Shown: in pieces, positions 2,574 to 24,009 of the stretch
Position numbering within the stretch: the first letter of the stretch is position 1
How the letters are laid out: each line of letters opens with the position of its first letter
Source: a virus
DNA: 24,009 bases
IMG/VR virus record: IMGVR_UViG_3300008267_000557
Span: 1-24,009 of that record
Strand: one strand, 5' to 3'
Made by a program: the position numbers and the translations under genes
Notes under the pieces: model-generated
The model's input: the letters and a program-made list of their open reading frames with translations, nothing else
Told to the model about the DNA's origin: nothing
The model's database searches: none

Positions 2574-4199
2574 TTAGAATGATCCACCTGTGATTGGGTT
2601 TCTCATAACAATTTTCAACACTTTGGTTGGATCTTTAACCCAAATAGCTGGCATTGTTTGTGTCATCATTACACGGTATCCATTGAAGTTACCATTAGAT
2701 TGGAAACCTTGAGTTCTTCCCATGTAATCCATAGTTCCATTTTGGTAGAACCATTTCAATTGATTATCCCAAGATAATTTTAACATGTAGATGTTGTCAT
2801 TACCTGTATCAGTGATATCAAAAATTACAAAGCTGTAAGAAGATAAAGGATTACCATCAATGATTGGATTCTCAATATCATTAGTATGTAAGTTATCAAA
2901 AGCTGGATTAAGAACAAACTTAACATTAGCTAAGAAAGGAATTACATAACTAGTGAAAGCAAATCCAAAATTTAAATCCATTCCTTGACCAGAGATTGCA
3001 CCAATACCATTGTTAGATGCAGCTTGGATTACTAAACCTGAGTTAACAGCTTCACGCTTGATAGCCTCATTTACTAATCTCATACCACCCATACCAGTTT
3101 GTACAATCAATTGTCTTTTTGGATCTGGACCTTGGAACTCCACACGACCTGCATAGAAGTTATACAATTCAGATCTGAACAATTCTAAGCTGAAGCTAGA
3201 TTTGTTGTATACTCTTTTGTAAGAGTTATCTAATTGTTTCCAAAGACCCACAGATAATCTCATATCATCTGGACCATCTTGCTTAATTCTACCACCATGA
3301 CCCCACATTAAGTAAGTTTCAATGTCAGTAGCAATTTTAGTCAAGTGAGCTGCTTCCATGCTAGTTAAGAATGTACGAGTTAATGTACCATTTCCTACTG
3401 CTCTTTTTAAATAGTCTTTACCCATTTTAGAAGCAACATCCTCAATTTTAGAAATTGCAGGATCAACATTTTTGTCAAAGTTTCTCCAGATTTCTGTAAC
3501 AGGAACTGTTCCATCTGCATTCATACCACCTTTTAACATTAAATCAGCTCTTGAAGAAACTGAATAATGAACATGAGCTTCAGCACCACCCACAAAGTTA
3601 TAGAATTCACGGAAACCAGATCTAGTTTGAATATCTGAAAATCTTTCACCATACTCACCTCTAGCAGAACCTTTTCTGAACAATTTAGTTTGTGGTGTTA
3701 AATACTTGTTCTCTAAGAATTTGTAGTTATCATTGTTTACTAATTGAACAGTATAGATGAAACCATCACCCATAGGTAAGATATCATCAGCTGTGATGTA
3801 CATCTCAACACCATTGTATTTGTCATAAGTGATGATATCACCATGTCCAAATTCTCTTTTGTTGATTTTAACTTTGAAAGTTGTACCATCAATACCTTTT
3901 GTAGCATTTCCTGCTTCAATATCTTCTACAATGTAAGGAAGATCTTGAGACACTGGAGTTTGCCATTTGTACTCACCACGAGCATTATCTACATTAATGA
4001 TGTTCTTGCCACCAAATGAAGATAATTGGTAAAGAGGCATTTCAACCTTTTGAGACATAGCCCAGATATCTACTGGTCCTAAATCCATAGGTTCTGCATC
4101 TTTCAACATATTCACTAAGTGATAAGAATCTACATGTGAACTAGCTTGGTAGTTGGTATCACGTAGAAATATACCATTGTTTAAAACTGGAGTTGACAT
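2574..4199 (-). CDS. Major capsid protein
   Basis: A 541-aa protein that forms the icosahedral shell, probably with an HK97-type fold. Assignment rests on length, on the position directly after portal and probable scaffold genes, and on resemblance to crAss-like MCPs, including the N-terminal region with LGPVDIWAMSQK and a Gly/Asn-rich C-terminal half (residues about 350-540). There is no signal peptide or membrane segment. The gene is preceded by a long A/C-only leader and followed by a strong hairpin, an arrangement expected for a very highly expressed transcript. Whether the N-terminus is processed cannot be told from sequence. An alternative virion protein is possible but unlikely given gene order. 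Confidence 0.85.
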   Translation of the reverse strand: MSTPVLNNGIFLRDTNYQASSHVDSYHLVNMLKDAEPMDLGPVDIWAMSQKVEMPLYQLSSFGGKNIINVDNARGEYKWQTPVSQDLPYIVEDIEAGNATKGIDGTTFKVKINKREFGHGDIITYDKYNGVEMYITADDILPMGDGFIYTVQLVNNDNYKFLENKYLTPQTKLFRKGSARGEYGERFSDIQTRSGFREFYNFVGGAEAHVHYSVSSRADLMLKGGMNADGTVPVTEIWRNFDKNVDPAISKIEDVASKMGKDYLKRAVGNGTLTRTFLTSMEAAHLTKIATDIETYLMWGHGGRIKQDGPDDMRLSVGLWKQLDNSYKRVYNKSSFSLELFRSELYNFYAGRVEFQGPDPKRQLIVQTGMGGMRLVNEAIKREAVNSGLVIQAASNNGIGAISGQGMDLNFGFAFTSYVIPFLANVKFVLNPAFDNLHTNDIENPIIDGNPLSSYSFVIFDITDTGNDNIYMLKLSWDNQLKWFYQNGTMDYMGRTQGFQSNGNFNGYRVMMTQTMPAIWVKDPTKVLKIVMRNPITGGSF

Positions 4200-5610: not shown

Positions 5611-8379
5611 CTATTTCTTCTTATTATTATTTTTAGCTTTTACATCAAATTTATTTTTATTTTCTCTTGCTATATTTAAATCCATCTGCTTCATTTGCAT
5701 TTGAGCTTGTAATTTCTCTCTTTCAATTTGAGCCTTTTCTCTATCATTCTCTGTTCTGTTAGACTCTTTATTGTATTGCAAATTCATGTTTTCTTTATAC
5801 TGTTCAGTTTTTTGAATTTGTCCTAAAGCATCCATATAATCAGACTGTTGGTTCTGATTAATATCTTGCATAGCACCATATCCAGCAGATTTAATTTCAG
5901 CAATAAGTATATCTTTTCTTCTATCTTTCTCAGCTTCTTGCATTTTAGTATCAAGTTCAAGTTGTTTTTCTTGAAGTCTAGTTTGCATTTCTTGCTGTTG
6001 CATTTCTTGTTCATGCTGTTGTTGTTCTTGTCTCAACTTATCAGCTTTCTTCTCTATTCCTTTTAATGCATTAGTAAGTTCACCAATAGATTCAGTTTGG
6101 ATAATATTTCCTAAATCATAAATAGATGCACCAGCAGTATTGTTAGAAATAGCTAACTGTTTCATTTGCTCTAATATAGATCTTTGATTTGCCTTAGTAG
6201 AAGAGAATATATTAAGATCTCTTAATAATAAATCAGTACCATTCATTTCAAAGTTTACTTTTTCATCAGCAGATGTCATATACTGAAGTCTTACAGATGG
6301 TTTTTTAGCTTGATAATATTGTGCTAAATCAGTTCTCATCTGGTGAACTCTTGGCATTAAGTAATCTGAATGTTGAATAAAGTAGGTTTCAGTCTGTGCA
6401 TAAGATCCTGTTACAGCTTGTTCAATTCCTTTAGCAGTATCAGTTTGTCCTATTTGTTGACCTAATCTTTGAGGAGATACACCAATTACTTCAAAACATT
6501 GTTGTTTAAAGTAGTTAGCCATTTGAATCCTAGATAACATCCTTTGAGTTTGTTCTAGGTTCATTACTTGGAAATGCTGGAAGTTTAATGCATTTTCTGT
6601 ATTAGTAATAGAAGTATCCAATGGTAACATTTGGAAATTCTTCATTGCTACATAAGCTTTGGCTAAATTGTTTTTACCCCAATCACCTCCTAAAGATTTT
6701 TGTGGTAAAGCATTTTGATCCAACATAATAACTGTACCTAATTCATCTACTAGAATATCAGCTATCTGGTTATTAACAATGTTGTATCCAATTTGGAAAG
6801 GTTTCATTAAATCTACCATAGAAGTAGATCTTGTATTTCTATCATTAAATACAGCACCTTCTACTGGAAGTTTACAACCATAAAGTGTACTGTCTCCTTT
6901 GAATTGAAATTTTAATGGTCCTAATTTGTTTTGATCTATACCTAAGTACATTGGGTTAATACCTCCTGGATTATTCATACCCCAGAATGATGGATGGTTA
7001 GGTCCTATTTTAATACCTCCCCAAGTTTGATTAATCCATATCCAATCAATGTGCTCACCAAATACTAAGTTATCTTTAGTTTTATTTTTAACTAAAGTTG
7101 TATCATAGATTGGTTTATCTGTTACTATATAGTCTTCTGTGATGATGTCTGTATCTACTTCACCTGTTTCACTTATCTTAGTAAGATGACCTACTTTTCT
7201 TTGTGATTTCCAGTATGCTGTAGTTACCCTTAGTAGGAAGGCTGCACCCATAGGAGCATAATCCTCATTCTCAGACATGATCCAGTTAATAATATCTCCA
7301 CCATTATAAATGAAGTTATCATACATAGACACAAACTGTCTGTATGCTAAACCTGGCATATTTGTATTCCACTCATGTGATTTAGTAGCATCATAGTAAC
7401 TACCATCATTTTGATAACCTTGAAGTGGATAACCTGCAGATCTTACCGGGTAAATAGCTTCAATAGATTCTAATTGTTCTTGAGTCATTACATAACCATA
7501 CTTGTCAATAACATCAGCAATGGTCATCATCTCAATTTTACCAACCCAGTTACCTTGAGAAATATATCTAGCATCAGGAGATTTATGATAGAATGTAGTT
7601 ACAGGATTCCATAATTCTACATCATAATCATCATCATTCATTTTAAAGTGCCAGAACTCTCTATCAGTAATAAGCATATCTCTGAATCCTCTTTCCTCAA
7701 GCTCATCCATTTTAAATCTTTCTTCATCAATTTTATACTGATGAATAGCCCATTGTTCACACATACTTCTATAATCTTTATCAAAGAATGATTGAATCTC
7801 TGGTAAAGTTTTAAGATTTTCTGGAGACATTTGTTGTTCCATTTGTTGTTGAACTTCAGGATCATTTTGATCAAGACCTTGTTCAAGCATTTTAGCCATA
7901 AGCTTTTGTTGTGCTTTAGCTAATAATACTTCTTCAACTTGAGATCTCTTTTGTTCTAATTGTTCATTATAAGAGAATTCATCTACAGCTTTAAATGTAA
8001 TTTTAGTATTTCTTTTTGCAAACTCAGCAGTAAGGACATTAATTACATTAGGAATGATAGGATAAAACTTTAATTCAAGAGCACTAACATCTTCTTTTGC
8101 TAGAGTGTCAACTATATCTCTCATCTCATTATCATCTTCAACAAGATAATCTGTTTTATCAATTACACCTTTAGCTAATTTGTAATTTTTCATCAACCTC
8201 CTGGCATTTCTTCTGATTTGCTTTAATCCATTCCATTCAAGCCAATCTAAATTCCAGGCTGCCCATTCTGCATCTTTTTCACTTTTAGGTAAAAACTGGA
8301 GAGGTTGAGTAATAGAACCCATTCTATTGTACTCAGCCTTTTTTCCAGACTTCATTTGCATTGCATTTAATACTTGCAT
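5611..8379 (-). CDS. Portal protein
   Basis: A 922-aa protein that would form the dodecameric ring through which DNA enters and leaves the capsid. It lies directly between TerL (7-nt gap) and the probable scaffold/MCP genes. Size and content match crAss-like portals: a long N-terminal wing/clip region rich in Trp/Tyr and acidic patches, a central region with NDRNTRSTSMVDLMKPFQIG (about residues 510-535), and a helical region containing GVSPQRLGQQIGQTDTAKGI that is typical of portals in Bacteroidota phages. Roughly the last 145 residues are a Gln/Lys/Glu-rich coiled coil ending in a basic Lys/Asn tail; this tail could be the internal barrel. The call is based on motif memory and synteny. Confidence 0.88.
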   Translation of the reverse strand: MQVLNAMQMKSGKKAEYNRMGSITQPLQFLPKSEKDAEWAAWNLDWLEWNGLKQIRRNARRLMKNYKLAKGVIDKTDYLVEDDNEMRDIVDTLAKEDVSALELKFYPIIPNVINVLTAEFAKRNTKITFKAVDEFSYNEQLEQKRSQVEEVLLAKAQQKLMAKMLEQGLDQNDPEVQQQMEQQMSPENLKTLPEIQSFFDKDYRSMCEQWAIHQYKIDEERFKMDELEERGFRDMLITDREFWHFKMNDDDYDVELWNPVTTFYHKSPDARYISQGNWVGKIEMMTIADVIDKYGYVMTQEQLESIEAIYPVRSAGYPLQGYQNDGSYYDATKSHEWNTNMPGLAYRQFVSMYDNFIYNGGDIINWIMSENEDYAPMGAAFLLRVTTAYWKSQRKVGHLTKISETGEVDTDIITEDYIVTDKPIYDTTLVKNKTKDNLVFGEHIDWIWINQTWGGIKIGPNHPSFWGMNNPGGINPMYLGIDQNKLGPLKFQFKGDSTLYGCKLPVEGAVFNDRNTRSTSMVDLMKPFQIGYNIVNNQIADILVDELGTVIMLDQNALPQKSLGGDWGKNNLAKAYVAMKNFQMLPLDTSITNTENALNFQHFQVMNLEQTQRMLSRIQMANYFKQQCFEVIGVSPQRLGQQIGQTDTAKGIEQAVTGSYAQTETYFIQHSDYLMPRVHQMRTDLAQYYQAKKPSVRLQYMTSADEKVNFEMNGTDLLLRDLNIFSSTKANQRSILEQMKQLAISNNTAGASIYDLGNIIQTESIGELTNALKGIEKKADKLRQEQQQHEQEMQQQEMQTRLQEKQLELDTKMQEAEKDRRKDILIAEIKSAGYGAMQDINQNQQSDYMDALGQIQKTEQYKENMNLQYNKESNRTENDREKAQIEREKLQAQMQMKQMDLNIARENKNKFDVKAKNNNKKK

Positions 8380-8386
8380 ATCTTTT

Positions 8387-10588
8387 TTATCTTAAATTTT
8401 TAAATGGTGATCTTGGTACTCTATAAGAAGAATCCCAATTACTTTTACCCATATGTCTAAAAGGACTATTAGTAAATTTATATAAATCTTGTGAATTATC
8501 CAAAGATTTTTTATCTGTCTTATCTATTCTCTTTTTGATACCTCTATTGGCTTCCTGCACTTTAGCAAAAGCTATAAGAGCCCCCAATGCAACTAGTCTA
8601 TCCACATTCATTCCTTCTCTGTATTGTTGCATTTCTATCATTGCCATTATATCAGGAATCCTTTCAATACCATACTTAATTCTTACAACTACACCATCTT
8701 CTTTTTCAACTCTGTCCAGTTCTTCTTTACAGTAATCAATTAAGTAATTTAGAATGTAAGTTTTAAATATAGTACCACTATTTCTCCAACCATATTCAGT
8801 ATATCCTCCTATAGAGTTTTCTATATCTTTTCTAAATATAATTTGATCTTTAGGAACAAGGTACTTTTGTTTTCTTTTTTTAATCATATGTGTTAGAAAG
8901 CCTGGTACATTGTTCTCAACAATAGTCCAAGCATTATACCACTCTATGAGTAACTCTAATCTTTCATGTGTTTTATTAATATCATCAAACCTTCCACACC
9001 AGCTTGCTACAATTCTATCTTCTTCAATATAAGTAGTTACTTCACCACCATCAATCTTAGTTACTTCTACTGGAATTTTATACACATAAATAGAACATAA
9101 AGATTCTGATGTAGTTGTTTTACCCTGAGCTACTGGATCTATAGAGGCATAATATGTTCCCCAACTAGCATTTTTATCTGGTCTTTCATAAACAACAATA
9201 ACACCTGTTTTATCTTCAGTGTTTTTAGTTATAGGAAATTCACTAATAGGAATCTTATTACTCTTTTCTACATTCCATGTAGCATCTGCATTTCTTGATA
9301 AATTAATAAATTCAGTTACATATTCCTTTTCTTCAATTCTTCTTTTCTGAGCAGCAACTAAATGACTAGGAAATATAGAAACAGATCTTGTAGCAAATGC
9401 TTCTTCAATATTTCTAGGATGCTGTGATAACTCTAACTGGAAAAGCTCTGGAGATAAATCCTTTTTCTTTTTATCAAAGTATTCATCTAGCATTTTTAGA
9501 GCTTCCTCTACTAATGAGTTACCATACTTATCTACACAAGGAGGCATTGACCATTGTTCAGGAATAAATAATCCTGATTTACCATGAGTATTTTTATTGT
9601 CTAATAGATTAGATTCAACATAAAAAATATCATTAGCTTCTGGATGAAGTATCATTTCTCTTAATGGTTCACATTGATCTAAATCACCCACTGATCCAGC
9701 AGCAATAAAAGTACCTGTTGTAATCATACCTGATTTAAGTGCAGGCTTCATGTATCCAAATGTGTTATCCATCTTTGGAGCAATTCCTGCCTCCTCATGG
9801 AAGAAGTAAGTACATGGTCCCCCTACACCAGCAGTAGGATCTTTTTCAAATGATGTTCCTTTAAGAACTCCTTTCAAACCTTTGTTAGTTTTTCTGTTTT
9901 GACCTGGGACTGAAGTCTCAATTTGCTGTTGCCAGTCAAGGACTTTACCTGGGTTCATTGGTCTATACCAAGCAGTATTATCATCTAAGAAGTTTCTATA
10001 TTCATTTAAGAATCTCCATGTATCATTAACATAAGTCTTAAGACTTGCACCTATTTTTAAGATAGGAGTTTCTTCAAACCAAATACAGTTTATAAGTTTA
10101 GCTGCATGGAAATAAGAAGAGGCTATCTGCCTTTTCTTTAATACAGCTGCATGTTTATAGAATAACTCTGCTAAAACTTCATATAATGCTAAATGGTATT
10201 GAGCATCTCTTATATCTGGGAAGGAGAATCTTCTTATCTCTTTATTATTAATTGGTAGGAAGTTCAACCACATGTAGTACTCTCTAGTTAGATACCAACA
10301 CTTTTCCCCATTCTTAAAAATAACTCCCTTTCTACATCTTGTTTTTTGTTCATCCCAGTATGTTATATAGTCTTTACTTTTAACTGGAGCTGCTACATAG
10401 TAACCATTTTTATTATACTTTGAAGCCTCTTCATTAAATACAAATGAAGTCTCATCAAATTCATACTTACCTGGTTCTTTAAATATAGACAATACAAAAT
10501 CTCTAAACTCACTTCTGGTATCAAAACTAGTTGTTGTCCAAGTACCATTGTCCCAAGTAGGAATATCAGTATAAAAAAATTTATCCAT
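8387..10588 (-). CDS. terL: Terminase large subunit (packaging ATPase and nuclease)
   Basis: A 733-aa DNA-packaging motor. The N-terminal ATPase shows a Walker A-like KKRQIASS (residues 151-158) and a Walker B-type strand CTYFFHEEAG (259-268) with catalytic Glu. The C-terminal RNase H-like nuclease shows the expected acidic residues: ASIDPVAQG (Asp484), IVENN (Glu558) and NVDRLVALG (Asp663). Length matches crAss-like terminases. It overlaps the upstream 70-aa gene by 8 nt and is followed 7 nt later by the portal gene, the standard head-gene order. No small terminase subunit is recognised beside it; one of the small upstream genes might fill that role. Confidence 0.93.
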   Translation of the reverse strand: MDKFFYTDIPTWDNGTWTTTSFDTRSEFRDFVLSIFKEPGKYEFDETSFVFNEEASKYNKNGYYVAAPVKSKDYITYWDEQKTRCRKGVIFKNGEKCWYLTREYYMWLNFLPINNKEIRRFSFPDIRDAQYHLALYEVLAELFYKHAAVLKKRQIASSYFHAAKLINCIWFEETPILKIGASLKTYVNDTWRFLNEYRNFLDDNTAWYRPMNPGKVLDWQQQIETSVPGQNRKTNKGLKGVLKGTSFEKDPTAGVGGPCTYFFHEEAGIAPKMDNTFGYMKPALKSGMITTGTFIAAGSVGDLDQCEPLREMILHPEANDIFYVESNLLDNKNTHGKSGLFIPEQWSMPPCVDKYGNSLVEEALKMLDEYFDKKKKDLSPELFQLELSQHPRNIEEAFATRSVSIFPSHLVAAQKRRIEEKEYVTEFINLSRNADATWNVEKSNKIPISEFPITKNTEDKTGVIVVYERPDKNASWGTYYASIDPVAQGKTTTSESLCSIYVYKIPVEVTKIDGGEVTTYIEEDRIVASWCGRFDDINKTHERLELLIEWYNAWTIVENNVPGFLTHMIKKRKQKYLVPKDQIIFRKDIENSIGGYTEYGWRNSGTIFKTYILNYLIDYCKEELDRVEKEDGVVVRIKYGIERIPDIMAMIEMQQYREGMNVDRLVALGALIAFAKVQEANRGIKKRIDKTDKKSLDNSQDLYKFTNSPFRHMGKSNWDSSYRVPRSPFKNLR

Positions 10589-15987: not shown

Positions 15988-17943
15988 TTATAAAGAATAA
16001 ACACCTAATCTATAAACATCAAATTGTCCTGAGTTATTAATACCACCTAATTGTGAACCCATAGTTCTTACACCAAAGAAATTTAATCCTACTGTAGAAG
16101 CTGGTAAATTAGTTGATAAAGTTCCTTGTGCAACATCACCTGTTCCTTTATTTACTATTCTGTAAATAACATTACTTGAGTTTGGAGCATTGTATAAGAA
16201 ACAACTATATATTGTTGTAATAGCAGCACCTGCTGTTCTATTTGATGGGAAGCTACTTCCTAGATCAGTTTTAGTTACTACACCACTTGCATCATTGTGC
16301 ATGATCTGTAAGTTAGCATCTCCTGAGTCATTAGCAAAAGCAATAATATTTGTTAATGCAGATGGTTGATCATTATTAACACCACCAATTAATAAATCAG
16401 TAGTAGATGATGCTAACCCCCAAAAGTTATGTGTACCTGTTACAAATGCTGTATCTGATATATTAAATTCACCGCTATATAAAAAACCACCAGTAAGATA
16501 CCAAAGTAAAGCAGAACCTCTTAGTCCTGTATATCTACCTACTGAAGTAGTAGCTGCCACCATACCCATTCTTATACTTCTTGTTGCAAATGATGTAGAT
16601 GCTACAGCTCTTGCGGTTGCTGTTCCTGTAATTGAGAGTGTAATACTTGGTGCAGTATCAACTGTTATTGAGCTATTTCTAAATGTGCTACCTCTCCAAA
16701 TTTCATTACCAGACATTTTAGGAATCAATGATGATTCATAAGTTGGGATATTTAATGTGTTTCCTATTAATGTAGCTACACCATTTGTTCCTGTTGTTGT
16801 TAAAGTTATAGCATTTTGCTTACTATTAAATGTAGACCAATCAGTAGAGGAAAGATATCCATCTGCTGTTGATGATGCAGCACCTTGTATGGTATTAATA
16901 GATGCTGTTTTCCATTGGCTAGGAGAAACTGTATTATCATACCACAATGTGTCTTTTAAATTTGGACTTTGTGCTTGGACATTATGTAATTCATCTAATT
17001 CATAACCATTTTGAACTCTGACATACATTCTACCTGAACTACCATTACTAGCAGTAGTAACTACTCCTAAGTAAACTAAATGATTTGGAGCATAAGGTTT
17101 TACATTTGTTATTGTTCCTGCAGTTGCACCTAAATATATAGCATCTCCATCTGCAAATGTTGCTGTAGGTAAAATAGATAATCCATCTAGTAAACCTTGC
17201 ATCATTATTAAACCTTTTTGATTTGAAGCTATTGATGTTGATAATACAATCCCAACTGTTTGAGCAGATGTAGAATCACCTACATTACTTGCTCTTTTAA
17301 CTGTCATTCTATCTCCTGTTCCACTAAAAGCATAAACAGGCATACCTTTTGTCAAAGTAACAGTATCATCATTTGTTACATAAGAAATTAAAGTATTAGG
17401 TGCAGTACCAATAGCTTGAAAAACATTTGAAGTTGAATTGTAAACACATAACATTTCTCCTCCATTAACAATATCTCCACCTATTAAAGCACCATCATTA
17501 TTTCTATATAATGGTATAGCTCCTAAACTATTAATATTTAATGTAGCAGAAGTAGTATTACCATTTGTAAATCTAATTAAGTAAGCATCACCATCAGTAT
17601 AAGCTGTTACGCCTGTTATAGTTGCAGTATAAGTATCAGTTCCACTTGCTATTGCAAAAGGTATTCCACTACCACCTCCACCTGTTTGGTCAACCCATTC
17701 TAAATCATAATCAGTATTTGTAGCTTTAGCTAATACTTGTCCAGTAGTTCCACCATCAGGTACAACATTAGTCATTAGAACCCAATTAGTACCATCTGAA
17801 TAATAATAGTCATTATTGTAATAAACTATTCTTTTAGGATTAGCACTTGCAAGGTTTGTAGTTATATCTAAAGTATCAGCCTTTAAATTATCTACTTTGT
17901 TACTTTGTAAATCTATATCAACAAAATATTTTTTAGATGCCAT
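15988..17943 (-). CDS. Tail fibre / receptor-binding protein with MASKKYFVDIDLQ anchor
   Basis: A 651-aa fibre. The N-terminal anchor MASKKYFVDIDLQSNKVDNL is shared with the two fibre-type genes upstream. A beta-rich domain after a GGGGSG hinge (about residues 93-97) and the segment STDWSTFNSKQNAITLTTTG are typical of Bacteroidota phage tail fibres. The C-terminal ~230 residues (from about SLIPKMSGNEIWRGS) contain RMGMVAATTSVGRYTGLRGS and end in the short YRLGVYSL tail, a form I associate with receptor-binding tips. It was presumably selected to recognise a host surface glycan. The start at 17943 follows an A/C-rich leader. Confidence 0.85.
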   Translation of the reverse strand: MASKKYFVDIDLQSNKVDNLKADTLDITTNLASANPKRIVYYNNDYYYSDGTNWVLMTNVVPDGGTTGQVLAKATNTDYDLEWVDQTGGGGSGIPFAIASGTDTYTATITGVTAYTDGDAYLIRFTNGNTTSATLNINSLGAIPLYRNNDGALIGGDIVNGGEMLCVYNSTSNVFQAIGTAPNTLISYVTNDDTVTLTKGMPVYAFSGTGDRMTVKRASNVGDSTSAQTVGIVLSTSIASNQKGLIMMQGLLDGLSILPTATFADGDAIYLGATAGTITNVKPYAPNHLVYLGVVTTASNGSSGRMYVRVQNGYELDELHNVQAQSPNLKDTLWYDNTVSPSQWKTASINTIQGAASSTADGYLSSTDWSTFNSKQNAITLTTTGTNGVATLIGNTLNIPTYESSLIPKMSGNEIWRGSTFRNSSITVDTAPSITLSITGTATARAVASTSFATRSIRMGMVAATTSVGRYTGLRGSALLWYLTGGFLYSGEFNISDTAFVTGTHNFWGLASSTTDLLIGGVNNDQPSALTNIIAFANDSGDANLQIMHNDASGVVTKTDLGSSFPSNRTAGAAITTIYSCFLYNAPNSSNVIYRIVNKGTGDVAQGTLSTNLPASTVGLNFFGVRTMGSQLGGINNSGQFDVYRLGVYSL

Positions 17944-17964
17944 TTTGTTTTTGTTTTATATGTT
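17944..17964 (-). promoter_or_regulatory. A/C-rich leader of the 651-aa fibre gene
   Basis: The leader reads ATATAAAACAAAAACAAA before the ATG, without a Shine-Dalgarno motif. It is related to the leaders of the capsid and 602-aa fibre genes. Confidence 0.5.
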
Positions 17965-17973
17965 GTAAAAATA

Positions 17974-18162
17974 CTAAATATTAGTATCTTTTGTTATTAT
18001 CTCATTTGTTGTAGTGCCATTATTATACTCTAATTTATTTGTATTAGAGTTAAATCTTAAAGCACCCTCTTTTGTCATATCTACATTAGAACCTATAACT
18101 ATATTAGTTAATGTGCTTCCTTGCATATCTAAATTTACATTATATTTTTTAGATTTTGACAT
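17974..18162 (-). CDS. Orphan fibre anchor domain, 62 aa
   Basis: The product starts MSKSKKYNVNLDMQGSTLTN and then shows GALRFNSNTNKLEYNNGTTT. It aligns with the first ~60 residues of the 602-aa fibre (KKFFVDIDLQGNALNN, then SFRFDGTRLEYFDGTA) but has no shaft or tip. The longer in-frame ATG at 18192 lies in the loop of the preceding terminator hairpin, so the start at 18162 is preferred. It may cap the attachment site when no fibre is bound, or be the remains of a lost fibre gene. Both are inference. Confidence 0.65.
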   Translation of the reverse strand: MSKSKKYNVNLDMQGSTLTNIVIGSNVDMTKEGALRFNSNTNKLEYNNGTTTNEIITKDTNI

Positions 18163-18178
18163 TTTAAATATTTTTATA

Positions 18179-18206
18179 AAAAACCACCCCAATTAAGGAG
18201 TGGTTT
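18179..18206 (-). terminator. Intrinsic terminator after the 602-aa fibre gene
   Basis: A hairpin with an 8-bp stem AAAACCAC/GTGGTTTT and an inner CC/GG pair is followed on the minus strand by a T-rich stretch (TTTTTTATAAAAAT). It lies 35 nt past the stop of the fibre gene. Some read-through is needed if the orphan-anchor gene downstream has no promoter of its own, and I see none. Confidence 0.75.
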
Positions 18207-18241
18207 TATTATGTGTATTGTATTAAATTGTGTTAATTTAA

Positions 18242-20050
18242 TTAAAAATTACCTGCTGCTTTTATAATAGAAACTATTACATTTTCAGATGGTTCAAAAT
18301 TAGATGCAATATATAAAGTATTATTAGTATCAGGGTACATAAAAAAATCTGCAAATATACCTTCATACCTAGAAGTTGCAATAACACCTGCTGTACCTAA
18401 ATTATGAGTAATAGTTGCTTCGTATACACCTGCACCTGCATTATAAGTCCACCCACTTGTTCCAGTAGTACCCTCAATTATAGCGGTATAAGATTGAGCA
18501 TTGATAGCAGCATTTCTATCAATTACTTCTTGTGCAATTTGAGTATCTGTATAATCATTAGCATCAGATTCAGCAGTTGCAGCAGCACCATCAACATAAG
18601 TTTTGTTAGCAGCATCACCATCGTTTGTTGGAGTTGGTAAGTTGATAATAGAATTACCTGATGCATTTAAATTTGAAGCTAAAATAACACCATCTCCTAC
18701 ATTTCTTTCTTGTAAATAAGTAGTTTGTACAAAGTTAACATTAGTAACACTTTGACCACCCATGTCAATATCACCAGACATAGTACCACCTGTAAGTGAT
18801 AATTTCAATGCATCTTGACCATCAACATAAGTCTTGTTAGTAGCATCACCACCATTAGTTGGAGCTGGTAAGTTTGTTACTTTACCAGTATTTTGAAAAT
18901 CTAACTCACCGCCATCGAATAATACATTAGTATTGACTGGTGCAATAGTATTAACTGATAAGTAATCAACACCAGTAACATTATTACCAACCATGTCAAT
19001 ACCACCTGACATAGTGCCACCTGCTAATGGTAACTTGTTAGATGTGTTATCATCAACATAATCTTTGTTAGCGGCATCTGCACCATTAGTTGGAGCAGGT
19101 AAGTTAACAATGGTTTGAGCATTTTGAGCATCTAAACCAACCAAAAGATTAACATTAACGTTATCTCTGCTATAAATGTCATTAACAAAAATAGCAGCAG
19201 TTCTTAATTCAGTAACTCCACTAATATTGTAAGCATCCATTTCAATGTCACCTGACATTGTACCACCTGCTAAAGGTAATGCAGTAGCTACTTGGTCATC
19301 AACATATTGTTTATTAGCAGCATCATCATTAGTTACTGGTGTACCAATACCATTAACTCTTTGATTACCAAGATTAATTTCCTCAGCACCATTAGCTACA
19401 ATTAAACTACCTCCGACACCAATATTTAATTGATTAACTCCATTAATATTATTACCACCCATATCAATAGCACCACTCATAGTACCACCAGCTAATGGTA
19501 ATTTGCTAGAAATCTCAGGAGTAATTTGAGCATCAATTTTACCTTGTAATGTAGCAGGAGTTACAACAACTGCACCACCTTCTGTACCATCATTAACTTC
19601 TGTTTGTGTAGCTAATCTTACAATACCATCAACAGTTTCAGTAGCTAAAACTACATTACCTTGAAGAATTAACCAATTAGCAGCAGTAGAACCTGGGTTA
19701 TCTAGTTTAGCAATAACTAAATCACCAACTTGTACTGATTCACCTAAGAAAGTACCAACAGCAGTTGCTACCCAAAAGAAACCTTTTAATACAGTTGTAT
19801 CAGCTGCAATATCAGGAGTGTTAGTAGTTGGATCATAACCACCTTGTAAAATAAGACCACCTGTTACAGCAGAAATATCTGTTAAGTTAGCTACTTGTTT
19901 AACAGCAGTACCATCAAAATATTCTAATCTAGTTCCATCAAATCTGAATGAACCAGCTTTAGTCATACTTGAGTTAGCACCAATTGTTGAATTGTTAAGA
20001 GCATTACCTTGTAGGTCAATGTCTACGAAGAATTTTTTTGAAATTGCCAT
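18242..20050 (-). CDS. Tail fibre with GGTMSG-type repeats
   Basis: A 602-aa fibre. The N-terminal anchor MAISKKFFVDIDLQGNALNN is followed by a beta-rich domain, then four repeats each containing LPLAGGTMSGxIDM (GGTMSG at residues 188, 262, 344 and 421, 74-82 residues apart) and ending DAANKxYVD. Such repeats build triple-stranded beta shafts in phage tail fibres. Residues ~486-520 are a helical DANDYTDTQIAQEVIDRNAA linker, and a small C-terminal domain (EATITHNLGTAGVIATSRYE, 545-564) probably binds the receptor. The gene has an A/C leader and its own terminator, so it can be transcribed alone. Confidence 0.88.
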   Translation of the reverse strand: MAISKKFFVDIDLQGNALNNSTIGANSSMTKAGSFRFDGTRLEYFDGTAVKQVANLTDISAVTGGLILQGGYDPTTNTPDIAADTTVLKGFFWVATAVGTFLGESVQVGDLVIAKLDNPGSTAANWLILQGNVVLATETVDGIVRLATQTEVNDGTEGGAVVVTPATLQGKIDAQITPEISSKLPLAGGTMSGAIDMGGNNINGVNQLNIGVGGSLIVANGAEEINLGNQRVNGIGTPVTNDDAANKQYVDDQVATALPLAGGTMSGDIEMDAYNISGVTELRTAAIFVNDIYSRDNVNVNLLVGLDAQNAQTIVNLPAPTNGADAANKDYVDDNTSNKLPLAGGTMSGGIDMVGNNVTGVDYLSVNTIAPVNTNVLFDGGELDFQNTGKVTNLPAPTNGGDATNKTYVDGQDALKLSLTGGTMSGDIDMGGQSVTNVNFVQTTYLQERNVGDGVILASNLNASGNSIINLPTPTNDGDAANKTYVDGAAATAESDANDYTDTQIAQEVIDRNAAINAQSYTAIIEGTTGTSGWTYNAGAGVYEATITHNLGTAGVIATSRYEGIFADFFMYPDTNNTLYIASNFEPSENVIVSIIKAAGNF

Positions 20051-20090
20051 TTTGTTTTTTTTGTTTAGTTTTTGTTTTGTTTATAATTGA
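20051..20090 (-). promoter_or_regulatory. A/C-rich leader of the 602-aa fibre gene
   Basis: The leader begins ATTATAAACAAAACAAAAAC and continues TAAACAAAAAAAACAAA before the ATG. The start, ATTATAAACAA, is also present in the capsid gene leader at the same relative place. Confidence 0.5.
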
Positions 20091-20099
20091 GTTGTTTAA

Positions 20100-20317
20100 T
20101 TAGTTACAGTATACATAACCAGTTGTTGGGGTATTAAAACTTACTTTAACAGTATTATTATCAATCCATCTACTACTTGAATAGAACATCTAGTTCCTAA
20201 ATTATGATTTACTGTCCACTCAGTAGAGGCAACACTTTGTTGATGTACAAAACTGGAATCTGATACACTATTTACATAATCAAATTCACCAGATACTGGA
20301 TTATATATATTTTTCAT
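20100..20317 (-). pseudogene. Fibre-tip gene broken by a frameshift/deletion
   Basis: A 58-codon frame (20317-20141) starts MKNIYNPVSGEFDYVNSVSD, has EWTVNHNLG and then VVDG, after which it runs into IIILLK and a stop. Shifting to the -1 frame at this point gives WIDNNTVKVSFNTPTTGYVY-CN (20168-20100), which is the normal end of such beta-sandwich fibre tips (HNLG...VVD...IDNNTVxVxF). Typical tips have roughly ten extra residues between VVD and WIDNN, so a small out-of-frame deletion is likely. No slippery heptamer is present, so programmed frameshifting is less likely. It could also be a sequencing or assembly error. Confidence 0.65.
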
Positions 20318-20320
20318 ATC

Positions 20321-20692
20321 TTAAATATAATTAATATTTGTGACATTTCCATTAACATCATATGTTAAACTTTCTAATATTGTTTCAACTCCTAACTCAG
20401 TTGTTCCTATATGTGTTATAGTTGTAACATCATTGTTAGCATTATATGTTAATGTTCTGCTGTAATTAGCAGCACCTGATATTCTATCTATTTTAGAAAT
20501 AGAATTGTTTTTAATCTCCTCTATAGAGGAAACCATTGTAGCTTGATTATTAAGAATATCAGTTAATAAATCAATTAAATCAGTAAGAGGTGCAACCGAT
20601 GTAGAAATCTCTCCTAATATTTGCAACTCTCTTAGTTGATAAGGAAAGTTATTTCCTTTATTTCCCTGGGTTTTAGTATTACCTACACTCAT
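20321..20692 (-). CDS. Small conserved structural-type protein (GNTKTQGNKGNN)
   Basis: A 123-aa protein starting MSVGNTKTQGNKGNNFPYQL, a signature I have seen in many Bacteroidota phages just before tail fibres. The middle is helical (PLTDLIDLLTDILNNQATMV). The C-terminal part is beta-rich with two related strands, LTYNANNDVTTI and LTYDVNGNVTNI, resembling a YD-repeat pair. The stop lies 3 nt before the start of the broken fibre-tip gene. The function is unknown; a baseplate or fibre-attachment role fits. Confidence 0.75.
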   Translation of the reverse strand: MSVGNTKTQGNKGNNFPYQLRELQILGEISTSVAPLTDLIDLLTDILNNQATMVSSIEEIKNNSISKIDRISGAANYSRTLTYNANNDVTTITHIGTTELGVETILESLTYDVNGNVTNINYI

Positions 20693-20698
20693 GTTTTA

Positions 20699-20929
20699 TT
20701 ATTTATAAAGTTCTTTAATTCTAGCTACTACATCTGCATCAGTCCATTGACCAATAGCATCATAAGCAGCTCCTTCCCAAAGAGTTATAACTCCTAATTG
20801 TTGAACAAAAGCTTTAACTTCTTTTCTTTCAGAGTTATCAACAACTTCTTCAACTGTTAAATCATTAACAGTTCTTTTTAATTCTTTAACTACTATTATT
20901 TCTTTAGGTGTTTCAAATGTTATTTTCAT
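20699..20929 (-). CDS. 76-aa conserved phage protein
   Basis: The product starts MKITFETPKEIIVVKELKRT and ends with VKAFVQQLGVITLWEGAAYD-AIGQW. The LWEGAAYDAIGQWTD motif is one I recognise from phages of Flavobacteriia, without a known function. It lies 6 nt upstream of the 123-aa gene and 20 nt after the repeat fibre gene, within the tail module. Confidence 0.7.
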   Translation of the reverse strand: MKITFETPKEIIVVKELKRTVNDLTVEEVVDNSERKEVKAFVQQLGVITLWEGAAYDAIGQWTDADVVARIKELYK

Positions 20930-20949
20930 AATTATTTTTTATTTAAATA

Positions 20950-21900
20950 TTAAATTCTAAATGCTTTTACAGTATTATTATCTGTTGAGTCTATCCATAA
21001 ATAAGTACTACCTGATGATCCTCCTGTTAGAGATGCTGTTGCAGCTGCTAATCCTGCATATACAGGCATACTAGAATTACTAATTATAAATTGCCCATTT
21101 TTAGTATTATTTTTACCAGCTGTATGTCCAAGAGCTATTACATATGAACAATTACTTTGTTCACCAGCTCTTACACCAATATAGTTTGAATAAGGTGCAT
21201 ATGAATTATAACCAGCTGCATTTCCTATAAAATTAGAACTTGATGAATTAGGAGAATTTCCACCTGCTGATGCACCAATAAAATTAGAAAAATTTGAACC
21301 TGAAGCTGATTGACCAGCACCACTACCAAGAAAAATTGAAGCATTTGAATTTGCAGCTCCAAATCCTGCTGATAGACCTAAAAAAATCGCACTTGAAGTA
21401 TTATATGCATTTACTCCTGAACTACTTCCTATAAAAATTGCTGAATTACTACTGTATGCATTATAGCCTGCATTATCTCCGACATATAATGAAGAAAAAC
21501 CATAAGTTGCTTGATATCCAGCACGATATCCTATAAATGTGCTATTATTTGCTCCATCAGTTTGATAACCTGCTGATGTACCTAAATAAACACTATAATT
21601 GCTAGAAGGTGTATCTTGCCCTGCAGATTCTCCAAAAGCTATTGAACCATTACTGTTTATATTACTAGTTGCTGGATTTATTGAATATAATGATGTACCA
21701 TATACTCCAATAGTTGATGGAGAAGCTATATCACTTATACTAATAGCATAAGAAGCATAAGCATTTGGATTAGATGGTCCTGATTTTCTGTTACCTGGTT
21801 GGAATACACCAACTTGTAGATATGTTTCATCAGGATTTATGTCTGATTGAGAAACTAATTTACCTTCTTTAATTAAGGCTTGTATGTTTAAAATATCCAT
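20950..21900 (-). CDS. Fibre with YadA-like 17-residue repeats
   Basis: A 316-aa protein. Residues 1-65 form an N-terminal part starting MDILNIQALIKEGKLVSQSD. Residues ~85-262 hold eleven copies of a repeat with core (F/I/L)(I/L)Gxx(A/S)G and Tyr/Asn/Ser spacers; the glycine period is exactly 17 residues through nine copies and 16 for the last two. Such repeats are known from the left-handed beta-rolls of trimeric YadA-like adhesins and phage fibres. The end (GSTYLWIDSTDNNTVKAFRI) resembles fibre tips that fold after the shaft. It is preceded by a terminator and a promoter-like element. Confidence 0.85.
   Translation of the reverse strand: MDILNIQALIKEGKLVSQSDINPDETYLQVGVFQPGNRKSGPSNPNAYASYAISISDIASPSTIGVYGTSLYSINPATSNINSNGSIAFGESAGQDTPSSNYSVYLGTSAGYQTDGANNSTFIGYRAGYQATYGFSSLYVGDNAGYNAYSSNSAIFIGSSSGVNAYNTSSAIFLGLSAGFGAANSNASIFLGSGAGQSASGSNFSNFIGASAGGNSPNSSSSNFIGNAAGYNSYAPYSNYIGVRAGEQSNCSYVIALGHTAGKNNTKNGQFIISNSSMPVYAGLAAATASLTGGSSGSTYLWIDSTDNNTVKAFRI
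21115..21636 (-). repeat. Eleven-fold 17/16-residue beta-roll repeats
   Basis: The repeat core Gly residues fall at 90, 107, 124, 141, 158, 175, 192, 209, 226, 242 and 258 of the protein. This is 51-bp periodicity, with the last two units one codon shorter. Units differ at the DNA level, so this is an old repeat array rather than a recent expansion. Confidence 0.9.
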
Positions 21901-21918
21901 GATGTTTTATTATATATA

Positions 21919-21926
21919 CAAATATA
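21919..21926 (-). promoter_or_regulatory. Candidate -7 element for the repeat-fibre gene
   Basis: TATATTTG on the minus strand fits TAnnTTTG exactly, 18 nt before the ATG at 21900. No TTG lies at the 20-nt distance. It directly follows the T-tract of the terminator at 21933-21971. Confidence 0.35.
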
Positions 21927-21932
21927 ATAAAA

Positions 21933-21971
21933 ATATCAGCATCTAATTGATCTGTAAGAAGATGCTGATAT
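21933..21971 (-). terminator. Strong intrinsic terminator of the lectin-like genes
   Basis: A perfect 12-bp stem, ATATCAGCATCT/AGATGCTGATAT, with a 15-nt loop is followed on the minus strand by TTTTATT. It begins 10 nt after the stop of the 178-aa gene and separates it from the repeat-fibre gene. Confidence 0.85.
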
Positions 21972-21981
21972 AATTATTTTA

Positions 21982-22518
21982 TTAAAATGATTTAACTGCA
22001 CGTACAGTAAGTGCTGTGGTCTTACTAAGACTGGAGCTGGTAATTCCATAGTCAAAGTTGCAGCTCCATGCATAGTTGATACCATCCTCTGTACTACTCC
22101 AATATAGTAGTGTATTAGATAATAAAGTACCACTTCCTAAAGCACTAATAGCTTTATTAACATGGTATCTATTATTATATACTGTATTAATCTCATCTAT
22201 AGAAGGAATGTGCCATCCTTCTCCTAAAGATTCAACCCATGTTTTAGCAAGACTATCAGTATATAAACTAGTATTAGTAGCACCATCCCAAGTACTATCA
22301 GCTCCAACTAAACTTGCTGGATTTTGTAAAGAAGTGATTGTTTCTGTTAAACTAACCACTTGTCCATGCTGTTGACCATCACTACCAGTATAAAGGTTAA
22401 AGATGATTCCACCTAAAAATTCTTCACCTAAGTAACGAATTCCTGGTAATGATGCAGCACCTATTGATTGGTTAGCTAACTCCCAATTAAATTTTCTTTG
22501 TAATTCAAACTCTTTCAT
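21982..22518 (-). CDS. DUF1566-type (lectin-like) receptor-binding protein, copy 2
   Basis: A 178-aa protein. The N-terminal anchor MKEFELQRKFNWELANQSIG is nearly identical to that of the adjacent 193-aa gene. The C-terminal domain has the DUF1566/Lcl pattern: GWHIPSIDEI (101-110), LYWSSTEDG (138-146), AWSCNFDYG (150-158) and TVRAVKSF at the end. DUF1566 domains have been linked to C-type-lectin-like folds and surface binding. The protein probably forms a tail tip or fibre-bound receptor-binding unit. The terminator at 21933-21971 ends this two-gene unit. Confidence 0.8.
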   Translation of the reverse strand: MKEFELQRKFNWELANQSIGAASLPGIRYLGEEFLGGIIFNLYTGSDGQQHGQVVSLTETITSLQNPASLVGADSTWDGATNTSLYTDSLAKTWVESLGEGWHIPSIDEINTVYNNRYHVNKAISALGSGTLLSNTLLYWSSTEDGINYAWSCNFDYGITSSSLSKTTALTVRAVKSF

Positions 22519-22529
22519 TGTTTTATATT

Positions 22530-23111
22530 TTAAATTGTAAATTTTCTAACTGCTCTAACTGTATATATATAACTTTGTTGATATATAAAAGAAGTAGTTT
22601 TACTAGCAAAATTTAAATACCAAGCTCTATCATTTTCATAAGAAGTACTACTCCAATACCAAAAATTTGGATTTGGGTATCTAAAATCATCTCCTCCTGC
22701 TTGTTCTAAACCTTGTGAAACATTATATAAATTTGTAGAAATTAATCTAAGTTCTTCAATAGCTGGTAAATACCAATCAGATTTTGTGTTTCTTGTTGAA
22801 ATGGTACATTGATATGCTGCTGTATTTGTATTTTGTGCTACTATTGAATTTGTGTTAGATTGACCATTCCATAAACTAATTGCATTATATGAACTATTTG
22901 TACTAGCCCATTCAAAAGCACCTATGTTTTCAGTATCCACAACTAAGTAATTTTGTATACCTCCTGTTATAAATCTATGAAAAATAACTCCTCCTTCTGC
23001 AGGTACATACTCCCCTATTTCATATTTAAATTGTGAGCCGGATACATTACTATTTATTTTTTCACTAGCTAATTCCCAGTTAAACTTTTTTTGCAACTCA
23101 AATTCTTTCAT
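22530..23111 (-). CDS. DUF1566-type (lectin-like) receptor-binding protein, copy 1
   Basis: A 193-aa protein, first gene of the minus-strand block. The anchor MKEFELQKKFNWELASEKIN is shared with the next gene; the middle differs. The lectin-like domain reads DWYLPAIEEL (112-121), FWYWSSTSYEN (150-160), AWYLNFASK (163-171) and TVRAVRKF. The surface positions between the conserved strands differ fully from copy 2, as expected of receptor contacts. The start at 23111 lies just after a promoter-like region. Confidence 0.8.
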   Translation of the reverse strand: MKEFELQKKFNWELASEKINSNVSGSQFKYEIGEYVPAEGGVIFHRFITGGIQNYLVVDTENIGAFEWASTNSSYNAISLWNGQSNTNSIVAQNTNTAAYQCTISTRNTKSDWYLPAIEELRLISTNLYNVSQGLEQAGGDDFRYPNPNFWYWSSTSYENDRAWYLNFASKTTSFIYQQSYIYTVRAVRKFTI

Positions 23112-23128
23112 AGTATATAAATTTAATA

Positions 23129-23164
23129 ATATACTAATATACTATATAACCTGCAGATAAACAA
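23129..23164 (-). promoter_or_regulatory. Promoter and possible operator of the minus-strand block
   Basis: On the minus strand TTG (23164-23162), a 20-nt spacer and TATATTAG (23141-23134) match the Bacteroidota consensus at 7 of 8 positions of the -7 element, with the same spacing as the promoters at 2430 and 13867. The -7 element overlaps two tandem copies of ATATACTA (plus strand 23129-23136 and 23137-23144), and the inverse, TAGTATAT, lies at 23111-23118. These repeats could be an operator or a leader hairpin. Confidence 0.55.
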
Positions 23165-23178
23165 GCACTTAAATAAAA

Positions 23179-23206
23179 AAACCCTGGAATGGAAAAACCA
23201 GGGTTT
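23179..23206 (-). terminator. Terminator insulating the promoter of the late block
   Basis: A perfect 9-bp stem, AAACCCTGG/CCAGGGTTT, with a 10-nt loop is followed on the minus strand by TTTTATTT. It lies just upstream of the minus-strand promoter at 23129-23164, so it would stop leftward transcripts from the intergenic region before they enter the lectin-like genes. On the plus strand the T-tract is only TTT. Confidence 0.8.
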
Positions 23207-23503
23207 CAAGCAAACAATTAATTAATCTAAAGCCCCATGAAAAATTGAGCACACAAATATAATACATTATTATATATATAAAAAATCAGTAGGAAGAAAA
23301 CCCAAAAAATCTCTGTGGGGTTTGGGGTGGGCAAACTATATAGATATAAGGTAGGCAGGGGTCCTATTCAAAACTCCCCCCGGGGTCTACAAACTTCCCC
23401 CCTACCCCCTATGTCTAGCTATGCCCTTTCCTAAATTCATCTATGAAAAAAGTTTTTTTCATGCTAAGTATCATATCTCATAAACTATCTTAATCTTAAA
23501 ACT
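23207..23503. other. Gene-free divergent intergenic region with G-run/C-run element
   Basis: I find no convincing reading frame here. Its left part is AT-rich. Between 23317 and 23409 are runs of G on the plus strand (GGGG at 23317, 23324 and 23358, GGG at 23329) followed by runs of C (C6 at 23376, C6 at 23397, C5 at 23405). On the minus strand this gives TAGGGGGTAGGGGGG. The segment GTAG...GGGG...CCCC...CTAC (23351-23390) can form a hairpin. Next comes an inverted repeat ATGAAAAAA/TTTTTTCAT (23443-23462). This could be an origin, packaging site or junction; none is proven. Confidence 0.6.
23463..23486 (+). repeat. 24-nt repeat R1, candidate early promoter/leader
   Basis: The copy contains GTATCATATCTCATAAACT and matches R2 at 20 of 24 positions. 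It directly follows a T-tract, as do R2 and R3, and it lies 17 nt upstream of the 43-codon ORF at 23504. Confidence 0.75.
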
Positions 23504-23635
23504 ATGATGACTTTGATTCTTGGATTCCCTGTTGCTATGTCTGATCATGACTCTTGGACAAACACAAAAAAAGCTTTATCTATCTGCTGGTGTGCAGTAT
23601 TAGATGTGTGCGTTGTAGCACTATGTATGGTATAA
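23504..23635 (+). CDS. 43-aa putative small protein of mini-unit 1
   Basis: The frame starts MMTLILGFPVAMSDHDSWTN and ends with a hydrophobic, Cys-rich segment (ICWCAVLDVCVVALCMV). It lies between repeat R1 and a strong plus-strand terminator whose stem begins 3 nt after the stop. That neat fit argues for a small gene, possibly a host-acting membrane peptide. Against it: it is short, its composition is unlike the other phage genes, and there is no homology I can name. The transcript might instead be a non-coding RNA. Confidence 0.35.
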   Translation: MMTLILGFPVAMSDHDSWTNTKKALSICWCAVLDVCVVALCMV

Positions 23636-23637
23636 TG

Positions 23638-23665
23638 AAAGGGGTTAATTCCCCTTTTGTTTTTT
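23638..23665 (+). terminator. Intrinsic terminator 1 of the plus-strand mini-units
   Basis: Stem AAAGGGG/CCCCTTT (7 bp, 6-nt loop TTAATT) is followed by TTGTTTTTTC. It is a strong plus-strand terminator directly before repeat R2. Confidence 0.85.
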
Positions 23666-23671
23666 CTTTAT

Positions 23672-23695
23672 GCTGTGTATTATATCTCATGAACT
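23672..23695 (+). repeat. 24-nt repeat R2, candidate early promoter/leader
   Basis: Second copy, containing GTGTATTATATCTCATGAACT. It matches R1 and R3 at 20 of 24 positions each. It starts 209 nt after R1, just after terminator 1. Confidence 0.75.
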
Positions 23696-23802
23696 TACCT
23701 GATGAAGTTATAATCCCTTCATCCTATTATATAACTCAACTCAGAGGCTTTCTCCTTATTGCTTTGGAGATGTAAGGACCGTAAACAGCTTTAGCAGGCA
23801 CA
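23696..23802 (+). other. Short transcribed unit 2 between R2 and terminator 2
   Basis: Only about 107 nt lie between the repeat and the terminator. A 28-codon frame (23689-23775, MNLPDEVIIPSSYYITQLRG...) starts inside R2, which makes it doubtful as a gene. A hairpin TCTCC/GGAGA is visible around 23750-23770. A small non-coding RNA is about as likely as a peptide. Confidence 0.4.
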
Positions 23803-23835
23803 AAGTAAGGCACATATTGTGTCTTACTTATTTTT
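23803..23835 (+). terminator. Intrinsic terminator 2 of the plus-strand mini-units
   Basis: A 12-bp stem with one G-U pair (AAGTAAGGCACA with TGTGTCTTACTT) and a 3-nt loop TAT is followed by ATTTTTC. It precedes repeat R3. Confidence 0.88.
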
Positions 23836-23838
23836 CAT

Positions 23839-23862
23839 TCTGTGTATCATATCTCATTAAGT
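23839..23862 (+). repeat. 24-nt repeat R3, candidate early promoter/leader
   Basis: Third copy, containing GTGTATCATATCTCATTAAGT. Its downstream flank (TTAACTCTTAAAATATAG) resembles that of R1 (TTAATCTTAAAACTATG). It lies 37 nt upstream of the frame at 23900. Confidence 0.75.
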
Positions 23863-23899
23863 TCCTCAAATTAATATTAACTCTTAAAATATAGAAATC

Positions 23900-24009
23900 A
23901 TGTTAGCACATCCATTAAGCTATTTAGAAGCTCCAACTGTTGAGGTTATGAAACCAACAACTAATCTAAAAACTATTATAATCAATGCAGATCTTACTGT
24001 TATAACAGC
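23900..24009 (+). CDS. Start of a plus-strand gene, cut by window edge
   Basis: A frame of 36 complete codons runs off the right edge, starting MLAHPLSYLEAPTVEVMKPT and continuing TNLKTIIINADLTVITA-like. It is the first reading frame after repeat R3 and would be the beginning of the oppositely oriented gene block, where crAss-like phages usually keep replication and early genes. No family is recognised from this fragment. Confidence 0.5.
   Translation, partial: MLAHPLSYLEAPTVEVMKPTTNLKTIIINADLTVIT

Follow-up and report, generated by a model that had tools for sequence, protein, structure and literature searches.

Two tandem genes of a crAss-like phage, here called P1 and P2, encode lectin-like proteins of a family whose C-terminal end, in 22 phage relatives, is a textbook variable repeat (VR) of a diversity-generating retroelement (DGR). 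The reading that we favour, with modest confidence, is that P1 and P2 are paralogous lectin-fold proteins, that the patch in many relatives is a VR written by a DGR not found in the phage records, and that P1 ends in an old cassette of this kind that has since drifted. The twins differ in a way that the initial annotation had not foreseen: the end of P1 is VR-like, whereas that of P2 carries no VR signature.

The window, meaning the whole stretch of DNA analysed here, is a virus record of 24,009 nt and a fragment of its phage genome. It belongs to a crAss-like phage (Crassvirales), with a Crass_capsid major capsid protein and a crAss-type portal and terminase (Table 1). crAss-like phages infect Bacteroidota. 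No near-identical DNA was found among named phages for positions 16000–24009, single-protein searches of IMG/VR returned no relatives of P1 or P2, and P1 had no tblastn match among named phages. Elsewhere in the window (23455–23869, plus strand), a 39-nt unit containing TGTATCATATCTCAT occurs in three copies (at 23467 with one mismatch, 23676, and 23843), with 0.12 copies expected by shuffling. These units lie outside the structural block, close to short plus-strand frames, and appear promoter- or leader-like; a pattern close to this repeat had no exact copy in the 278 loci examined.

Table 1. Positions of the twin genes, their modules, and other features of the window.
Feature	Position	Strand	Basis or remark
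Major capsid protein, crAss-like type	2574..4199	-	Crass_capsid PF23898, 7.3e-31
Portal (5611-8379) and large terminase (8387-10588)	5611..10588	-	phrog_6547 and phrog_6681
Repeat-rich neighbour protein	20950..21900	-	N-terminus 31% identical over 67 aa to that bearing Lcl_C in G007
Inverted repeat at P1 stop, ATATCAGCATCT...AGATGCTGATAT then T run	21921..21983	-	24-nt arms, 88% complementary
P1, Lcl_C (DUF1566) lectin-like, 178 aa, downstream twin	21982..22518	-	ORF; Lcl_C 2.3e-8
P1 36-codon C-terminal cassette (TAT TGG AGT AGT ACA GAG ... GTA CGT GCA)	21997..22104	-	Template match
P1 N-terminal anchor-like module MKEFELQRKFNWELA (first 15 residues)	22474..22518	-	14/15 identical to P2; putative anchor
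P2, Lcl_C lectin-like, 193 aa, upstream twin	22530..23111	-	ORF; Lcl_C 6.4e-10
P2 C-terminal segment homologous to the cassette, AT-rich, without VR signature	22551..22658	-	Template score
P2 N-terminal anchor-like module MKEFELQKKFNWELA (first 15 residues)	23067..23111	-	G007 N-terminus alike; putative anchor

Both reading frames were recovered on the minus strand at exactly the limits first noted, in tandem with a gap of 11 nt, and both contain the YWSST...AW..NF...VRAV motif. P1 and P2 align end to end with 63 of 196 columns identical (32%, BLASTP E 4e-22), so their likeness is full-length and far above chance. The loops between the shared strands had been called unrelated, a claim that proved too strong: the middle has diverged but can still be aligned between the two proteins. 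Against the Pfam model Lcl_C (PF07603, the former DUF1566; curated cut-off 34.9 bits), P2 scores 39.8 bits, above the cut-off, and P1 34.8 bits, 0.1 bit below it. The proposed lectin-like nature is supported by structure prediction: the AlphaFold model of P1, built on 30 aligned sequences, has a C-type lectin fold (mean pLDDT 79.7, pTM 0.76, residues 2–24 with pLDDT <50).

The P1 model comes closest to two folds. One is the C-terminal domain of Legionella Lcl (8q4e; for 8q4e_A, Foldseek E 4.7e-6 and Z 13.4, with 117 residues aligned at 2.8 Å), and the other is a fimbrial protein of Bacteroides ovatus (4eps; Z 13.5, with 150 residues aligned at 2.7 Å); snake C-type lectins reach Z 8.0–8.8. P1 has the fold of 8q4e and 4eps by prediction but is phage-encoded, and its short N-terminal module is modelled with low confidence. 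A phmmer search of solved structures with P2 gave two matches only, both at chance level. The lectin pair is genuine and comes from a family that DGRs target. The inverted repeat at the P1 stop is likely to be the transcription terminator of the twin genes, and it is unlike the bacterial DGR hairpin described below.

P1 and P2 are probably displayed on the virion through their near-identical N-termini. The shared anchor proposed initially behaves as an interchangeable module: in the crAss-like record G007, an N-terminus of the MKEF..FNW type, 74% identical to that of P2 over 19 aa, carries another head, and the Lcl_C protein (49% identical to P2 over 174 columns) has another N-terminus, from which we conclude that heads and anchors are shuffled. 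Both Lcl_C and a reverse transcriptase (RT) were sought in 27 terminase-relative records, the longer members of a set of 80, and only G007 among them has an Lcl_C gene. Neighbouring proteins of the window likewise have N-terminal modules in common with relatives, with different C-terminal parts. The protein at 20321–20692 (minus strand) begins with MSVGNTKTQGNKGNNFPYQLRELQIL, which recurs in many relatives ahead of differing C-terminal parts, a widely used module that is perhaps a virion anchor. The repeat-rich neighbour protein (20950–21900, minus strand), rich in A, G, S, and N with repeats spaced roughly 51 or 102 nt apart in the DNA, had no Pfam or PHROG match.

The C-terminal patch stood out in the relatives, for which a profile search retained 79 loci. 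Twelve distinct AT-rich phage genes have a third-base G+C of 0.57–0.78 after YWSST compared with 0.11–0.19 before it, and the gene ends have nearly identical codons at fixed positions with NNC codons in between; the G007 Lcl_C gene shows the same step (0.64 in its last 36 codons vs 0.11 before). The fixed-position pattern was found in 27 stretches in IMG/VR and in six GTDB genomes, and one of these six, a Chitinophagaceae MAG (contig L210), contains a template repeat (TR). This template reads TATTGGAGTAGTACGGAG AAC GAC AAC AAC AAC GCG TGG AAC..., its second codon being GAC. The L210 locus consists of its own VR gene followed by Avd, TR, and RT side by side.

The L210 Avd matches bAvd (PF22296, 1.2e-21) above the Pfam cut-off and scores 66.5 bits for the NCBIfam DGR Avd, below the cut-off of 80. 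The RT passes RVT_1 (2.6e-18) and reaches no curated NCBIfam cut-off; we regard it as a DGR RT because of its neighbours and its relatives in DGR phages. The VR gene of L210 encodes an Lcl_C protein, and a type IX secretion sorting domain is encoded two genes away, which gives the locus a bacterial appearance. The L210 template has 62 non-A (fixed) and 43 A positions for scoring, and the 22 distinct phage VRs, from 35 virus records, keep 53–62 of the former and differ at 13–24 of the latter. The link of this family to DGRs is stronger than the initial annotation had suggested.

These phages share with known DGRs that target Lcl_C/DUF1566 the target domain, the C-terminal patch, the AAC-rich template codons, and the A-directed differences; they differ in that RT and TR were not found in the 35 records, the matching cassette is bacterial, and the cassette of the window is worn. 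Several named Pseudomonas and Bacteroides phages (Cruim01, SC_8_H2H8_2017, Haboob, phPA-G, and BS-TP1) have an Lcl_C domain as in P2. In contrast to the window, an L210-like RT is present in at least these five of the 12 matching records. DNA searches with the L210 TR against plasmids and with one phage VR against named phages found nothing.

No matching TR was found in the other five of the six bacterial genomes with a VR, and the VR pattern occurred in 4 of 396 and 1 of 395 genomes in two order-wide samples, each count including the centre genome. From this absence of matching templates and this rarity, we conclude that the true donors are largely unsampled. Another bacterial contig, L218 (G095 contig C43), has a DGR-like locus with RT and Avd 65% and 40% identical to those of L210 and a template-like repeat unlike that of L210; an L210-type VR lies on another contig of the same genome. 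On L222, the bacterial-type hairpin CCGCGAAGCGGTCGATTTT occurs twice (positions 800 and 3419) in the vicinity of an RT that is accompanied by a different A-rich, template-like repeat.

Hypervariability of the C-terminal end, which the initial annotation had proposed to look for among strains, holds in relatives: near-identical phage contigs differ within the 105-nt patch. L196 and L198, both fragments, are 98.6% identical over 4,903 nt (57 mismatches, BLAST), and the 105-nt VRs of the two differ from each other at 21 positions, 20 of them template A. Between the VRs of L198 and L207, also fragments, all 19 differences are at template A. The genomes of these fragments may carry a DGR outside the sequenced part. 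In two pairs of large-phage relatives, L109/L110 and L169/L170, the loci are about 91–94% identical in longer blocks and the 266-nt downstream flank is 98% identical, with VRs that differ, also in length.

As the initial annotation had reported, no RT is seen in the window: RVT_1 has no match in this 24-kb record, itself a genome fragment, and no TR for P1 or P2 was found there. RVT_1 was also without a match in the 35 VR-bearing virus records (G007, 21, and 13 others), most of which are fragments, and in all 91 virus records searched (the window, the 27 terminase-relative records, 50 of a further set of 78, and 13 more); each of the six bacterial genomes has one or two matches, not all of them DGR-like. 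Nor was a TR found in the 35 records, where the single pattern match in each (≤3 mismatches) is the VR itself. A strict TR pattern derived from P1 had no match in viral contigs, one derived from the G007 cassette matched that cassette alone, and the 79 relative loci yielded no TR candidate with each gene's own end as query at a fixed score threshold. Among the loci examined, the L210 RT and Avd proteins matched bacterial loci only.

G007 (120,123 bp) is probably complete because an exact 123-bp direct repeat lies at its ends, and neither an RT nor a TR was found in it, the template being sought in overlapping pieces. Ten records were checked for end repeats: G075 and G078 have a second copy of their first 127 bases less than 600 bases from the end, and the remaining eight have no such repeat. 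The VR-bearing records are of several kinds: Crass_capsid is present in 5 of the 35, and genes sampled from other records include a crAss-type terminase and portal in L187, a tail sheath in L201, a portal in L170 (a 296-kb record), and replication genes in L196, L202, and L207.

One rival explanation, to which we give a minority weight, is that ancestors of these phages had a full DGR in cis and lost RT and TR, leaving the P1 cassette as a relic. It draws on the fact that crAss-like gut phages carry DGRs that are often incomplete (PMC7290462): in the accessible text of that report, 66 of 91 genus I crAss-like genomes have incomplete DGRs, 80 have a VR, and 30 a TR, so a VR without a TR is already known and is read there as an incomplete phage DGR, with host origin left open by its authors. 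The L210 RT also matches 104 phage records elsewhere, crAss-like gut phages included. These 104 matches likewise mean that the RT search is able to see phage DGRs, and at the sensitivity used the 35 records yielded neither RT nor Avd nor TR; an unusual RT could nonetheless be missed here too, as one DGR program misses the non-standard motif of Epsilon crAss-like RTs (PMC12386605, accessible text). Further points against a relic are that a single template pattern, that of a bacterial DGR, recurs in 35 virus records of several phage kinds, and that A-directed differences between contigs 98.6% identical need a recently active system.

The DGR described for crAssphage LMMB and relatives (PMC7290462) likewise belongs to crAss-like phages; there, too, the VR gene closes the structural block, and the VR often lacks a TR. 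In that system, RT and TR are carried by the phage or survive in truncated form next to the target, which is a tail-collar fibre gene, whereas no such remnant was found in the window and its relatives.

The place of P1 itself rests on its comparison with the template. The P1 cassette keeps 47 of the 62 non-A positions (0.76; 0.65 at third positions) and has one extra codon relative to the template. Differences fall on 20 of the 43 A positions and on 15 of the 62 non-A ones (p 0.021), a modest excess at A, with the exact template not found. The 15 mismatches at fixed positions (six G>A, six C>T, and three others) are mostly synonymous (11/15) and at third positions (12/15), a pattern that fits a VR drifting to AT-rich phage codon usage, although a different template, richer in A and T, could account for P1 equally well. 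The end of P1 is probably a worn copy of a DGR variable repeat.

The end of P2, by comparison, keeps 28 of 62 fixed positions (0.45; 7/34 at third positions) with 34 differing, and its third-base G+C is 0.03; it is not a DGR variable repeat and resembles the controls. These 29 control ends keep 0.30–0.60 of the non-A positions (≤37/62) and ≤0.41 at third positions. They are Lcl_C ends with third-base G+C <0.25, some near-identical to each other, and their choice by low third-base G+C is a bias against a G+C-rich template. Left out were ends of higher third-base G+C that do not match the VR pattern (L108, L152 and its copy L153, L178, L180, and L184), the truncated L147, and ends without the YW motif; scored later, L108 and L152 reach 44/62 and L180 36/62, so P1 is not alone between VRs and controls.

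A second rival, which we also consider rather unlikely, is that P1 and P2 are ordinary diverged paralogues and that P1 matches the template because both have the common Lcl_C end (YWSST..AW..NF..VRAV) and because G+C rises locally. The P1 value of 0.76 lies below those of all 22 clear VRs, the two unclear genes at 44/62 and the low-G+C choice of controls favour the same view, and the composition of P1 is not unique in the window. Composition of the P1 end was rejected as sole evidence, as its third-base G+C is reached by 2.5% of 5,287 overlapping stretches of 35 codons from the other genes of the window. P1, however, stands at 0.76 overall and 0.65 at third positions, where none of the 29 controls exceeds 0.60 and 0.41, respectively, and its mismatches are mostly synonymous transitions to A or T. 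That P1 and P2 serve alternately as receptor-binding proteins, as initially suggested, is quite improbable: the shared N-terminus, tandem order, and predicted lectin fold would suit it, but a repeat search of the window gave no sign of a switch, and the 11-nt gap on one strand suggests joint expression.

Under the favoured reading, P1 and P2 would sit on the crAss-like virion, held by their shared N-terminal module, and the C-terminal patch in many phages would be a VR cassette written by a DGR that was not found in their records. The template of the pattern adjoins an RT and Avd in a bacterial genome, and a bacterial (host) DGR is the putative source. P1 would then retain an old cassette since drifted to AT-rich phage codon usage, and P2 would either never have had a cassette or have lost all trace of it. 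The cassette may have entered by retrohoming of host cDNA in trans into the phage lectin gene, or the phage gene may have recombined with a bacterial VR gene by way of their conserved ends.

The region downstream of the VR bears on these two routes. Efficient homing in BPP-1 needs a hairpin just 3' of the VR, with far less activity without it (PMC3240598, accessible text). In the bacterial loci L208–L211, a hairpin CCGC-GAA-GCGG is followed by TCGATTTT; this arrangement (CCGC-GAA-GCGG...CGATTTT) is exact after four of the six bacterial VRs, and the hairpin is absent after all 22 phage VRs and after P1. Some phage VRs (e.g. L191) are followed by other short inverted repeats. The missing hairpin weakens simple retrohoming into the phages and favours recombination or less efficient homing, which makes recombination no less likely a route of capture than homing in trans. 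We are doubtful of the stronger proposal that the DGR of a Bacteroidota host, with its RT, Avd, and surface-lectin template, re-randomises in trans the putative receptor-binding patch of an infecting phage that lacks an RT, which would make P1 an old product of this process.

VRs apart from their RT have precedents in other settings. Some prophages have an additional VR at a great distance from the cassette that holds their RT (PMC12629997, accessible text), and partial DGRs consisting of a VR alone have been described in nanoarchaea (PMC4372165, accessible text). A literature search that left subscription papers and preprints mostly uncovered brought up no account of phage VRs that fit a bacterial template or of host DGRs acting on phages. 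DGR surveys look mostly for targets adjoining the RT, and remote targets were not detectable by the approach of Roux et al. 2021 (PMC8144416), according to its accessible text.

A named template, a set of phages that fit it, and one apparently complete genome without a detected RT make the question directly testable. If host DGRs are indeed the makers of phage VRs, hypervariability in phages would be undercounted, and a match between VR and template would offer a means to link phages to their hosts. DGRs would then be a shared resource in the conflict between host and phage.
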